NCBI GenBank assembly: GCA_900314745.1
Contig: OMWK01000002.1
Span: 1 to 64,000, forward strand
Source: an uncultured Eubacteriales bacterium
Lineage (GTDB): Bacteria > Bacillota > Clostridia > Saccharofermentanales > Saccharofermentanaceae
Length of the DNA: 64,000 nt
Reading direction: 5' to 3'
This document shows positions 40,757-45,647 of the stretch, piece after piece. The notes under the pieces are model-generated. The model made no database searches, was not told the DNA's origin, and saw only the letters and a list, made by a program, of their open reading frames with translations. Positions within the stretch are counted from its first letter, which is position 1, and each line of letters opens with the position of its first letter. A program made the translations under genes and the position numbers.

Positions 40757-42058
40757 TCAACCGTTATATGTACCGAGGAAGATAGGATTCATTGTAGAAG
40801 TATCAACAATCGCATATGCGAAAGGTCTGTCGCAGTATACATATCTGGCTTCATTTATTTCACCTGGCATCGCTGCTGCATCTTCCATTACAACAACTGT
40901 GGCAGCTGCGGCTCTCGTACCTTCACGGTCGAGTTCAATATGCGTATTATGAAGCACCTGACTGATGAATATATTATTCCCGCTGTCAGCCACACCGATT
41001 CCGGTAAAATCAGCAAGATCCTCATCAAAGGCATCCGTAACTCCCAAAGAAATAAGTACTTCAGAAAGACTAGTATCATAGTCATAATCAAACTCAGGAA
41101 TCTGTGTGTATACGTCATACTCTGAAGTCCTGCTGGCGATAAAGCTGTTATAGTCATCAACAGTAAAATCAGCAAGGAATTCGTTAGCACTGATGCTTTC
41201 ATCTATTGGAAGCATTACGAGCAAAGCATACTCTCCGCCCTCGTATACCTTGATAAATCCTGTTGCAACATCATTCTCGTAATAGTATTCTGAACCGTCA
41301 CAGAGCATATCCACATCGATCTCATCTCCTGCTGATGTGGTGAAAGTCATCTCACTAACCTGCCAATCCTCATAAGACTCTTCCCAATCTCCTTCAAATG
41401 CTATTGCATTAACGAGAACAGCAATAGTCTGAGGCCTTAACTGGTCCAGCACATGATCGATCATGCCGCTGGTGTGATCACTGATCCAGGAATTGATCTC
41501 GTCAACTGTCCCTGCATCAAATTCTTCAGCAATAGCCTCAGAATCAAAGGTATCTTCAATATATTCCTGATACTCGGGATTAAGACCGGATGACATTCTT
41601 AACTGATTCGTCCATACCGCATTTGCACAGTTGAATGAAACACCTTCAGAAGAATTGATGCGGTTCATCATATCAGCTGCAAAAGCCTGCTGCTCAAGCG
41701 GGTCTGAACCATTGGAGAACAGATTGGTAATCTGAGATAATGTGTCACCATTAGAACCAGCCGCAGCAAGATCCATAGCAATCATTATAGATGCAGGAGA
41801 CACCATTACATTCCTGTTGGAATCCTCAGAGGACAATACCTGTGCCATAAGACGGAATGAATAATCGTTATAGTCCGTACTGAAATCATCTTCCGAGTAT
41901 GAACATCTGGAAAGTTCATCATAATCGATACTGGTATTGAACAAATCGGGATCTGTCGGAAGCTGATCCTCTTCATCCGAAGTTACCTTGGAGCATCCGG
42001 AAAGAACCATCATGGATGCGATCATCATTGCTGTGAGTTTCTTTGTAAAAGTATTCAT
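40757..42058 (-). CDS. Lipoprotein serpin (serine protease inhibitor)
   Basis: 433 residues. A lipoprotein signal (residues 1-22, lipobox LSGC) anchors a full serpin domain, with NVMVSPASIMIAMDLAAAGSNGDT, shown as VMVSPASIMIAMDLAAAG, NCANAVWTNQ, and NAIAFEGDWEESY. The reactive-centre hinge EGTRAAAAT (residues 379-387) has the small residues required for loop insertion, so it should be inhibitory. Counting from the hinge Gly, P1-P1' are Ala394-Ala395, pointing to elastase- or subtilisin-like targets. The C terminus has the RPFAYAIVD and PIFLGTYN strands. AGGAGGG precedes ATG 42058. It may protect the cell surface from environmental or host proteases. Confidence 0.93.
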   Translation of the reverse strand: MNTFTKKLTAMMIASMMVLSGCSKVTSDEEDQLPTDPDLFNTSIDYDELSRCSYSEDDFSTDYNDYSFRLMAQVLSSEDSNRNVMVSPASIMIAMDLAAAGSNGDTLSQITNLFSNGSDPLEQQAFAADMMNRINSSEGVSFNCANAVWTNQLRMSSGLNPEYQEYIEDTFDSEAIAEEFDAGTVDEINSWISDHTSGMIDHVLDQLRPQTIAVLVNAIAFEGDWEESYEDWQVSEMTFTTSAGDEIDVDMLCDGSEYYYENDVATGFIKVYEGGEYALLVMLPIDESISANEFLADFTVDDYNSFIASRTSEYDVYTQIPEFDYDYDTSLSEVLISLGVTDAFDEDLADFTGIGVADSGNNIFISQVLHNTHIELDREGTRAAAATVVVMEDAAAMPGEINEARYVYCDRPFAYAIVDTSTMNPIFLGTYNG

Positions 42059-42113: not shown

Positions 42114-42860
42114 TTATCCTCTTGTAGCAGAAGGCTCAACCGGATCCGTCTCAGCAATAATAGGAGCCAAATGGTCATAAGTCTCTTCGGCCTGCGTAGT
42201 CTCGTATACTGAAGCATCGGGATCATCAGGTGATACCTCGGCTGTTACCACATAATCCACATTAAGAGGATAATAGTCGAGAACAGCAACGTACTTATTC
42301 TGAAGATCGACGGATTCATAAACCGATGCCTCATTAAGCTCATTGTCATCTTTGTTGACCAATGTTATCGACACCGTACTTACAAGCCAGATAATGACGG
42401 CAAGAAGAACAAGCTGGATGGCAAGAAGCGGCGTAACCGGGAATACATCCATAACCTTCTGAACAGCCTTGGAAGGCTTGCCCTTCTTATTCTCAGATGA
42501 TATGAATTCAGCTACCTTATAACCGGTGGAATCAAGCTTGGATGTAATCTTCTCAAGCATTGAATTTCTAGTATATTCGTCAAGTGTTCTGGGTGCAAAA
42601 CTAAGATTCTCAGGAAGAGGATACTTCTCTACAATCTCTTCGGCATTCTTAAGAAGAATGTCTCCGAATACATAAAGCACATCTTCGCCCCTTATGGAGC
42701 TTCTCTGCTGATATGTCTCAATATATGACTTAACAATGGCGTTCTCTGTACGCGTTGTCTCCTTACATATGCCGTATGTAGAGGAATAAACCATGTCTAC
42801 AGTGCTGTTATAGAAGGCTTCGAAGTTCTCACGTGTCAGTTTACTATTCCACATATCCAT
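42114..42860 (-). CDS. Single-pass membrane protein with sigma-region-2-like cytoplasmic domain
   Basis: 248 residues from ATG 42860 (GGAGG eight bases upstream; the frame is open to 42896). Residues 8-75 (ENFEAFYNSTVDMVYSSTYG, then AIVKSYIETYQQ) recall region 2 of ECF sigma factors, but the usual AED and QE(T/V)F residues are mostly missing and no region 4 is seen. A membrane helix follows at about residues 150-172 (LLAIQLVLLAVIIWLVSTV), with a 75-residue acidic tail outside (SPDDPDASVYETTQAEETYD). It overlaps the Cache-MFS gene by 17 bases and ends a three-gene operon. The sigma resemblance is my reading and needs a profile search. Function unknown. Confidence 0.6.
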   Translation of the reverse strand: MDMWNSKLTRENFEAFYNSTVDMVYSSTYGICKETTRTENAIVKSYIETYQQRSSIRGEDVLYVFGDILLKNAEEIVEKYPLPENLSFAPRTLDEYTRNSMLEKITSKLDSTGYKVAEFISSENKKGKPSKAVQKVMDVFPVTPLLAIQLVLLAVIIWLVSTVSITLVNKDDNELNEASVYESVDLQNKYVAVLDYYPLNVDYVVTAEVSPDDPDASVYETTQAEETYDHLAPIIAETDPVEPSATRG

Positions 42861-44919
42861 CGTAATCGCCTCCTTCCCCTTCCGATGCAAGGTCATCGAT
42901 AAAGCTGGAAATATCCAGATTACCGTTTGGCTCCGGTTCTATAAGTTCAGCGTCAGTAGGCATCTCAGGGATCACTATCTCTTCAGGAGAATATGCTGTA
43001 ACAGGAGGCTGCTGCTCCTGAACATTCTTCCTGCGATTCTTACCCCTGGAAGAATTATCACTCTCATCTATCTTGCCGGAATACTGGGACATCGGATAAA
43101 TGAATGATACGAGGAAATAAACAATACTTAATGCTATGAAGACGATCCTCATGTCGAAGAACAGTGCAAGACCGTATACCGGCAATGACAGGAGCACGCC
43201 GGCTACAAAAGACATCTCCGATGCCTTTCGAAGGTTGTACTTGATCTTAAACCTCGAATTCGCGATGAGATACAGCACATAAAGATAATAGAAGTCGTGC
43301 AGACCGAGTCCGAGACCTACAAGAGCTACAGTAAAGACAAGCATCTTAGCCGTAGGCATGAGTGCAAAGAGTATGAGACCTATAAGCGATGCCAAGGATG
43401 ACAGTAGTACTCTGGTCCTGGATGACAGGGCATACGCCAGTCTCTCCTTGATTATGAATCCCGCGAACAGTGCGAAGAAAGCCGTTACAAGGTAATAGAA
43501 AGACGATGTCGCGAGTGAGATTCCGACTGTATCAAGGAAATCCGGTACAAATCCGAGAAGGAATGAGAACAGAACACCCATGCTGAAGAACGTGGATGCG
43601 AGGAATCTTCCGGAATACTTATCCGAGACGAGCTCAAGCCATCTGTTAACGGGAAGATAAGACTCCTTCGGAGGATTGTTGTCTCTCATGAAGTAGATGA
43701 TGCCAATGCAGGACATGATCATGATAGCTCCGCTTATTACGTTAACAACGAGCAGACCGAATCTCTCAAAACAGATTCCGGCAATAACGGCACCGACTGA
43801 AACGCCGAGGAAGTATCCGGAATACTGGATATTATGAATCTTCCTGTCTGAGAAATCCTCATAACCCAGTTTACCTGCATTAAGTCTGTAATCTCTTAAC
43901 GAATCGAGGGACATGCCGTAAGCAAATCCTATGAAAGGAATGAGAGCGATCGTTACCGGCATGATGTCGATGATGCCGGCAGCAAGGCTTAACATGTAGC
44001 CTACGCATGTCGTTACAAGAACTGCAATCCTGGTTGTGAGCTTAAACTTAAGCTCCTTCCTTATTGCAGACCCGCCGAAAAGCCCGATTACATACAGCAC
44101 AAGGCCGCCGATAATAAGAGCCTGTACGGCAAGTGAAGGCAGTTCAAGCTCAACTCCCGCATTCTTGATGTAATCAGGAATGATAACTGCAGTCATGACT
44201 GCACCCAAAGAGCAGAAGAATGACAGGAATGAGACGGCCTCAGTACCATACATAATGATGACGGGCACGTTGCCTGATATTCCGCGGCTCAATGTAGATA
44301 CGAACAGATTAAGTTCATAGATGATTATCGCCATCGCAATGGCTATCGAGATAATCGTGAATATCCAGCTTAACGACATACCGTTAACAGTGGAAACAAA
44401 ATCAGAATAAGGCATTCTGACCTCGAGTATGCCCGCTGAAGTATTCTCGGGAGAAATAATCGGGGCAATGGCGCATACATACTTAACGCCGTCATCTGTT
44501 CTGGTAGTGAAAGCCGCATGCTGCAGCTCGAAGCAGTTGTTGTATTCATCGCCTACGCCGGACAGATAATACTGCTCGGAACCGCTGTATTCAGAAGTTG
44601 TGCCGAGTCTCAGGAACGAATTGCCGGCCTTCGTATAGATATCGAATATGTAAGGCTTGCCTTCGGCATACTCATATACGGGAAGCGGGAAGCTCATTCC
44701 TTCCACTATTCTCGAGTGTCCGAGAGCCGTTGAACAGGATACGGCAAGTGATTCCATTGCCTCTGCCCTCTCGGTCTCAAGAACGACAACATAGTTATCG
44801 GTGAGGATATTACTCATGACCATGAGGACAACAAGAACGATAACAAAGCAATAACCTATAGTCGCGGCTACGCTCCTCTTCTCTTTCCTTCTCTTTATCT
44901 CAGCTGAATTACGGCTCAT
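42844..44919 (-). CDS. Cache-like sensor domain fused to an MFS-type transporter
   Basis: 691 residues. A basic N terminus, a membrane helix (about residues 18-40), an extracellular domain of about 135 residues (PYIFDIYTKAGNSFLRLGTT, then VKYVCAIAPIISPENTSAG, a Cache-like beta-sheet pattern), a second helix (about 183-203), then some 12 helices of major-facilitator type (GFAYGMSLDSLRDYR, FLGVSVGAVIAG) up to about residue 600, and an acidic cytosolic tail with a basic patch (RGKNRRKN). This looks like a transporter module that senses ligands or signals rather than a plain exporter. It overlaps the upstream sensor gene by four bases and the downstream sigma-like gene by 17. I do not know a characterised homologue. 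Confidence 0.7.
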   Translation of the reverse strand: MSRNSAEIKRRKEKRSVAATIGYCFVIVLVVLMVMSNILTDNYVVVLETERAEAMESLAVSCSTALGHSRIVEGMSFPLPVYEYAEGKPYIFDIYTKAGNSFLRLGTTSEYSGSEQYYLSGVGDEYNNCFELQHAAFTTRTDDGVKYVCAIAPIISPENTSAGILEVRMPYSDFVSTVNGMSLSWIFTIISIAIAMAIIIYELNLFVSTLSRGISGNVPVIIMYGTEAVSFLSFFCSLGAVMTAVIIPDYIKNAGVELELPSLAVQALIIGGLVLYVIGLFGGSAIRKELKFKLTTRIAVLVTTCVGYMLSLAAGIIDIMPVTIALIPFIGFAYGMSLDSLRDYRLNAGKLGYEDFSDRKIHNIQYSGYFLGVSVGAVIAGICFERFGLLVVNVISGAIMIMSCIGIIYFMRDNNPPKESYLPVNRWLELVSDKYSGRFLASTFFSMGVLFSFLLGFVPDFLDTVGISLATSSFYYLVTAFFALFAGFIIKERLAYALSSRTRVLLSSLASLIGLILFALMPTAKMLVFTVALVGLGLGLHDFYYLYVLYLIANSRFKIKYNLRKASEMSFVAGVLLSLPVYGLALFFDMRIVFIALSIVYFLVSFIYPMSQYSGKIDESDNSSRGKNRRKNVQEQQPPVTAYSPEEIVIPEMPTDAELIEPEPNGNLDISSFIDDLASEGEGGDYDGYVE

Positions 44920-45599
44920 AGCTTCCTCCCCATGCCTGATCCTGAACGGTGAATGAACTTAGGGATCAGAAGCTGAACGATATATACGAATATTCCGACG
45001 GCTACGGCAATGATGACGCACTTGAGGATCCTTCCTTCGAATGAATCACCCATGGCCTTAAGACCGTTGAAATTGCACTTATACTCAAATACTGCAACAC
45101 ATCTGCCTGTGGAATCAGCAACGGGAACAAGGACACTCTCAGAATTCTTGCCTTCAACAGTAGTAGGAAGATTATCGGCATTAAGCCACTCGGAGATATC
45201 CCTGCTTGCTACCTCAAATGTCTCAGGAGCATCAGGGCCCTGATTCATGAGGATCGAGAGATGACCGTCTGAATAATAGAACAGACCATAACTCTCGCTT
45301 GTATAAGACTTCGTTGATGTGTCCGACAACATCAGCGAGAGTACCTCATTGTACTTAACTGCAGCATCCTGGGGATTTGCAGCTATCTCATCACCGTCCA
45401 GAGTTCTTCTGACAACATCGCTTACGGATTCACACTTTGTATCCGCGATGGACTTGAACTCCTCTTCAAACTGAAGTCTCATGTGGTGAACGGCAAATGA
45501 TACGGAAAGTACGGAAAGCATTAACGAGACGATGATAAGGATCACCGTTCTGATAACTCTGTTAAGAACATCCGCCTGATTGGCAGTTCTGTTTTCCAT
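44916..45599 (-). CDS. Membrane protein with extracellular Cache-like domain
   Basis: 227 residues: helix at about 15-38, extracellular part at about 39-185, second helix at about 190-212 and a short basic end. The extracellular part shows SYGLFYYSDGHLSILMNQG, then SVLVPVADSTGRCVAVFEY, the paired beta strands of a PAS-like Cache domain, preceded by a helix (MRLQFEEEFKSIADTKCESV). No kinase, HAMP, GGDEF or methyl-accepting domain follows, so any signal must pass to partners. It is the first gene of the operon with the Cache-MFS and sigma-like genes. A GGGAG ribosome site precedes ATG 45599. Confidence 0.7.
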   Translation of the reverse strand: MENRTANQADVLNRVIRTVILIIVSLMLSVLSVSFAVHHMRLQFEEEFKSIADTKCESVSDVVRRTLDGDEIAANPQDAAVKYNEVLSLMLSDTSTKSYTSESYGLFYYSDGHLSILMNQGPDAPETFEVASRDISEWLNADNLPTTVEGKNSESVLVPVADSTGRCVAVFEYKCNFNGLKAMGDSFEGRILKCVIIAVAVGIFVYIVQLLIPKFIHRSGSGMGRKL

Positions 45600-45638: not shown

Positions 45639-45647
45639 ATTATAACA
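45639..45647 (-). promoter_or_regulatory. Extended -10 promoter of the Cache-MFS operon
   Basis: The minus strand reads TGTTATAAT (TGn plus TATAAT), with transcription expected near 45632 and GGGAG at about 45610-45614. A TTGACT lies 20 bases upstream, too far to be an ideal -35. Confidence 0.6.

Follow-up and report, generated by a model that had tools for sequence, protein, structure and literature searches.

PhyR, a soluble alphaproteobacterial protein, joins sigma2 and sigma4 domains to a receiver, and its sigma-like domain binds the anti-sigma factor NepR. In it, a degenerate ECF-sigma-like domain acts by mimicry and not in transcription, and by analogy the same may hold for P3, the last of the three proteins (P1, P2 and P3) encoded by the operon described here. 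P3, however, is membrane-anchored, has sigma2 only and carries neither a receiver nor sigma4. ECF52/ECF53, IutY and the ECF sigma factors of 500–700 amino acids encoded in the same genomes as P3 resemble it in having a sigma region 2, a later transmembrane (TM) helix and an outer tail, and these long membrane ECF sigmas are the nearest sequence relatives of P3 found in our analysis. Unlike P3, which has lost both and stands in a fixed operon, these proteins retain region 4 and the residues that bind the core.

The other two proteins recall different systems. MFS proteins that act as sensors exist, and, as in the UhpC-type sensors, the MFS fold of P2 may report rather than, or besides, transport; UhpC, however, is not known to have outer Cache-like modules and acts via the UhpB kinase, whereas no kinase is linked to P1, P2 and P3. 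The lipoteichoic acid and glycerol-phosphate machinery of LtaS/LtaA and GacH also includes an MFS protein, and the ancestral form of our operon probably had a gene for an LtaS/GacH-like enzyme next to it; to our knowledge, LtaA has no Cache modules, unlike P2, and the enzyme gene was lost or moved in the clade of the window (the whole stretch of 64,000 nucleotides that was analysed). In Cache-domain receptors a TM helix leads into a long helix, followed by a PAS-like sheet and a second TM helix (PMC4822843), and P1 and P2 are predicted to be built alike. The outputs of these receptors are standard signalling domains and the main text of that paper mentions no transporter or MFS output, whereas the P2 module is joined to an MFS domain. 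A limited literature search found no paper on Cache-MFS fusions.

The operon and its signals in the window are as follows.

44916-45599, minus strand: P1, open reading frame of 227 amino acids
42844-44919, minus strand: P2, open reading frame of 691 amino acids
42114-42860, minus strand: P3, open reading frame of 248 amino acids, starting at the ortholog-conserved Met
45639..45647, minus strand: extended -10 element TGTTATAAT of the operon promoter, from sequence, at a position conserved in orthologs
42869..42873, minus strand: GGAGG Shine-Dalgarno of P3, inside the P2 3' end, from sequence and an alignment of P2 C-termini

An earlier sequence-only reading had described three genes overlapping by 4 and 17 bases under an extended -10 promoter. 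All three open reading frames lie head to tail with exactly these overlaps (4 bases between P1 and P2, 17 between P2 and P3), and the -10 element was found 40–48 bases upstream of P1. Most orthologs keep a TATAAT-like box there, some 45 bases from P1, and the TGn extension occurs only in the window. The start Met of P3 (MDMW/MELW) is kept across orthologs, and the ATG at 42896, which lies upstream of this conserved start, was rejected as an alternative. The GGAGG lies eight bases upstream of the P3 start within the P2 reading frame, and a conserved “GG” near the P2 C-terminus is present because this Shine-Dalgarno sequence is encoded there; it was therefore rejected as a functional motif of P2. 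The same reading had asked whether the gene order is conserved in other genomes, scattered genes being a refutation, and order and strand are identical in every one of about 40 inspectable loci. The conserved three-gene set is far beyond chance.

P1 or P3 was present in 104 of about 115 sampled genomes of the window's family. An order-wide search of 188 genomes revealed P3 in 102 and P1 in 101, all of them in that family and distributed over five genera, and neither was found in the other families of the order. Both proteins were encoded in 99 genomes, on the same contig in 97 of these, and the few missing cases look like breaks in the assemblies. Orthologs were also found on 16 public contigs, titled Saccharofermentans sp., Clostridiales, uncultured Clostridia or Ruminococcaceae bacterium. 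Outside the family, the P3 profile had no match in a 398-genome sample of the phylum and the P1 profile none in a 391-genome sample of the class; the phylum, class and order sets are samples, and absence elsewhere holds for the sampled genomes. The operon is normally present in a single copy per genome. Due to this family-wide presence, and the lack of matches in the samples outside the family, we class it as a core locus of a single family rather than as an accessory or phage element.

P1 consists of a TM helix, an outer Cache-like module with a PAS-like sheet (residues ~40–190), a second TM helix and a short basic tail, with no output domain. No Pfam family matched it above the cut-off and no Pfam Cache family matched it or its orthologs, so that its putative Cache assignment is by predicted topology. 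Weak or below-cut-off matches to a phage holin and to RXLR proteins were inconsistent across orthologs and were rejected. Residues F35, A36, H39, M40, R41, F44, E45 and E47 are deeply conserved, and the motif SFAVHHMR (VSFAxHHMR, within residues 33–47), situated where the first TM helix reaches the outer side, is nearly invariant across genera; it could be a metal, proton or interface site.

In P2, a TM helix, an outer Cache-like module (residues ~40–180) and another TM helix precede a 12-helix MFS domain (residues ~215–615) and a cytosolic tail. The MFS domain was recognized in 39 of 39 orthologs, with Pfam MFS_1 matching P2 above the cut-off (5.8e-12), and the corresponding part of a modelled fused ortholog aligned with MFS transporters at Z of about 30 over about 380 residues. 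P2 thus has a 12-helix MFS fold, and substrate transport is putative. Its outer module matched sCache_3_3 below the cut-off, with 0.0013 in the ortholog of locus L034 and in three of 39 orthologs.

P1 and P2 form a single open frame of about 870–1100 amino acids in 19 of 55 loci. All outgroup genera have split genes and the fused loci make up one clade on the P3 tree (support 95, one change; none of 500 shuffles was as low), which indicates that the fusion arose once. This natural fusion in one clade argues that P1 and P2 are one unit and work together. The AF2 model of the fused L034 ortholog, built with a 72-row alignment that included the window's proteins, had a pLDDT of 86.8 and a pTM of 0.80. 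It shows two modules with long helices at residues 2–61 and 224–281, each continuing from a TM helix and followed by five to six strands and a further TM helix, with the 12 MFS helices after the modules. The outer modules of both P1 and P2 therefore have the Cache topology in this model (PMC4822843), and the C-terminal parts of the two modules align in register (E 0.016). A structure search with the fused model listed only MFS matches and is uninformative for the Cache modules; a viral structure library yielded MFS matches and, otherwise, weak Cache-like ones only.

P3 starts with region 2 (residues ~1–86) and continues through a conserved helical linker with RxLDEYT...DS, a TM helix (~144–170), an outer YYPL, a variable linker and a terminal ATxG. 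Its N-terminus is placed in the cytosol by the positive-inside rule, as a Lys-rich stretch precedes the TM helix. In the AF2 model, pLDDT was mostly above 85 for residues ~10–110 and the TM helix was predicted at 144–170. The best 18 structures in the VIA alignment were all sigma factors or their transcription complexes (Z 5.2–9.1; the next had Z 4.2), led by E. coli sigmaE (Z 9.1, 2.0 Å over 81 residues). Foldseek alone was weak, its best sigma match being SigR (E 0.93). A profile of 50 P3 sequences matched a profile built from region 2 of the ECF sigmas that the same genomes encode, with E 1.1e-4 and a score of 25.9, the best of 100 column-shuffle controls scoring 17.6; this match required the deeper family, trimmed to region 2, and a genus-only alignment (A1–A4) gave none against the ECF profiles. 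The commonest NCBIfam match was a SigE-type sigma model (10 of 39 members, best 0.0013). The P3 profile also matched region 2 of two bona fide ECF sigmas (E 5.7e-5 and 1.2e-4), both with region 4 and a C-terminal extension comprising a membrane helix and a long outer part, which relates P3 to membrane-anchored ECF sigmas. Such ECF-type sigma factors are about 500–700 amino acids long, have both region 2 and region 4, and carry an outer tail besides a predicted membrane helix; they were located as follows.

L168:1-1848, minus strand: ECF-type sigma factor
L169:103-2184, minus strand: ECF-type sigma factor
L170:2087-3571, plus strand: ECF-type sigma factor

One of these is encoded in the window's own genome (G000, contig C26). 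Based on the fold, the profile match and the matches to membrane-anchored ECF sigmas, the N-terminus of P3 is a true, degenerate ECF sigma region 2.

Most of the domain assignments of the sequence-only reading have thus stood. It had proposed Cache-like outer domains in P1 and P2, and a sigma-region-2-like domain with one membrane helix in P3; the structure predictions contain both the Cache-like topology and the sigma-2 fold, the latter agreeing with the VIA, profile and NCBIfam results. Neither of the two outcomes that this reading had named as refuting it, predictions lacking a Cache or sigma-2 fold and scattered genes, was observed. The MFS domain of P2 was confirmed by Pfam and by fold, and the supposed charged cytosolic tail had to be redescribed as a fast-evolving low-complexity stretch (dN 0.27–0.64). 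The set had been called undescribed, in agreement with our finding that no named family covers P1 or P3 and that a limited literature search revealed no such set. The P1-P2 fusion, the LtaS/GacH-like neighbour and the invariant end of P3 were not visible to that reading. Overall, the set looks like an undescribed membrane signalling complex.

The features by which a sigma factor works are missing from P3. Region 4 had no Pfam match, and in the AF2 model region 2 is followed only by a short linker, the TM helix and the tail. At the positions assigned from the P3-ECF profile alignment, the conserved Gln of region 2.2 is replaced by a hydrophobic residue (Val/Ile/Leu) in 48 of 50 sequences, and the mean net charge of the DNA-facing stretch is -2.2 in P3 vs. 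+1.6 in the ECFs. In sigma factors these region 2 positions bind core polymerase and DNA. Since its sequence lacks region 4 as well as the residues that usually bind the core and contact DNA, P3 probably does not work as a sigma factor as it stands. Nevertheless, its region 2 is strongly constrained: dN was 0.027–0.037 in four of five ortholog pairs, the lowest or near lowest of the operon, and 0.14 in the fifth, compared with about 0.06–0.25 for P1 and the P2 domains (dS was near saturation, so that dN/dS ratios are rough). Such constraint without sigma function suggests a docking surface, and a sigma mimic or docking domain is the better reading of P3.

All 62 distinct complete P3 sequences end in [STK]ATxG after the variable linker, and a SAT[RS]G ending at the stop codon occurs once in the window's genome, in P3. 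The C-terminus is therefore specific and selected, and is a candidate tethered ligand, contact or protease mark; a genome-wide sorting signal was rejected, since the ending is unique to P3 in that genome. An HtrA-like protease of one genome ends in SATSG like many P3s, and this resemblance, which is not kept in relatives, was dismissed as chance.

We tentatively propose an envelope sensor complex in which P1 and P2 form the receptor unit and P3 is a tethered sigma mimic, a reading to which we give rather less than an even chance. P1 and P2 would be one membrane receptor, its MFS-type core of 12 helices bearing two outer Cache-like modules as sensors, and would sense an envelope-side ligand or state. 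P3 may assemble with them, perhaps via its outer tail, with the invariant ATxG end as tethered ligand or contact, and its sigma-2-like face might bind a partner that normally holds sigma region 2, for which an anti-sigma factor is the simplest candidate. A signal related to the envelope would then alter how this anti-sigma-type partner is held at the membrane and so change the amount of free sigma factor. This would resemble the sigma mimicry of PhyR, with the difference that the mimic is tethered to a receptor of transceptor-like kind. The transport-coupled sensor of the sequence-only reading, signalling to or holding a sigma-like protein, fits. Counting against mimicry, the sigma-2 fold can be reused for unrelated docking.

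A non-transcriptional role in envelope assembly is almost as likely. Of the 24 loci inspected, 11 have a co-directional gene for a phosphoglycerol transferase of LtaS/GacH-like type directly upstream of the operon, within about 110 bases. These loci come from four genera, with early branches of the window's genus among them. The enzyme matched Pfam Sulfatase (2.5e-37), and GacH and LtaS are its nearest solved structures. Examples are the following.

L077:4387-6918, LtaS/GacH-like phosphoglycerol transferase
L015:2623-5208, LtaS/GacH-like phosphoglycerol transferase
L093:4765-7347, LtaS/GacH-like phosphoglycerol transferase
L087:10360-12894, LtaS/GacH-like phosphoglycerol transferase

The link is probably ancestral, as it stays while the neighbourhood differs between genera. 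On the branches of the window's genus represented by L089, L090, L093, L014 and L015, the LtaS-like gene is kept and few other neighbours are common to other genera. The window's genome encodes only relatives of the enzyme that are about 30% identical, and a search of G029, a close relative that retains the operon, found no ortholog; the idea that LtaS is an obligate partner was therefore dropped. Further neighbours are an LCP-family gene (LytR_cpsA_psr) downstream in genus g20 and a Mur ligase gene upstream in the window. A serpin lipoprotein gene (Pfam Serpin 1.3e-73) follows P3 downstream on the same strand after 55 bases, a position that it keeps in the close relatives L002 and L005.

40757-42058, minus strand: serpin lipoprotein gene

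The neighbourhood favours a cell-envelope setting, and the old LtaS/GacH-like neighbour points to cell-envelope polymers; since its ortholog is missing from near relatives that keep the operon, the link is indirect. In an assembly or transport unit without any link to transcription, the MFS domain would move or flip an envelope precursor, the Cache-like modules would gate it, and the sigma-2 fold of P3, its polymerase and DNA features lost, would be a reused scaffold anchoring a cytosolic enzyme. The transferase, LCP and Mur ligase genes and the losses in P3 agree with this scenario, whereas the very strong constraint on P3 region 2, the retention of the operon in near relatives that lost the LtaS-like ortholog, and two sensor modules, which are unusual for a plain transporter, do not. 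Moreover, no acidic residue inside the MFS helices of P2 is near-invariant except E385 at the end of TM5, so that classical proton coupling is not favoured.

P1 and P2 could also be a sensor of the UhpC kind, in which case P3 would be no more than a membrane partner that this sensor needs to fold or to stay stable. The conserved gate-like residues of the MFS domain (R342, R345, H362, Q365, E385 and R386) and the precedent of sensor MFS proteins speak for such a role, but it leaves the strong constraint on the cytosolic sigma-2 part of P3 unexplained, and we consider it unlikely. That P3 is a membrane-tethered sigma factor, freed by proteolysis to reprogram RNA polymerase, is very unlikely: it is homologous to membrane-anchored ECF sigmas of sister genomes, its conserved outer C-terminus would be readable by a protease, and proteolytic release was shown for IutY and proposed for ECF52/53-type proteins (PMC8999054), but P3 lacks region 4 in sequence and model, its core-binding Gln is replaced and its DNA-facing stretch is acidic.

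The envelope sensor complex with a tethered sigma mimic can be extended to a more specific hypothesis, in which a transporter-fold receptor with two outer sensor modules would control transcription via a membrane-tethered degenerate sigma-2 mimic, the invariant outer C-terminus of the mimic being part of the switch; taken in full, this seems rather unlikely to us.

In conclusion, the operon is a core locus throughout a family of anaerobic bacteria common in rumen and gut, and two of its three proteins belong to no named family. Even without mimicry, the Cache-MFS fusion and the natural P1-P2 fusion offer a clean setting in which to study how a sensor is coupled to a transporter. Should P3 prove to be a sigma mimic, mimicry of this kind would exist at the membrane in Clostridia-class bacteria and be wired there to a receptor of MFS type, and the coupling of envelope state to transcription in these anaerobes would become directly testable.
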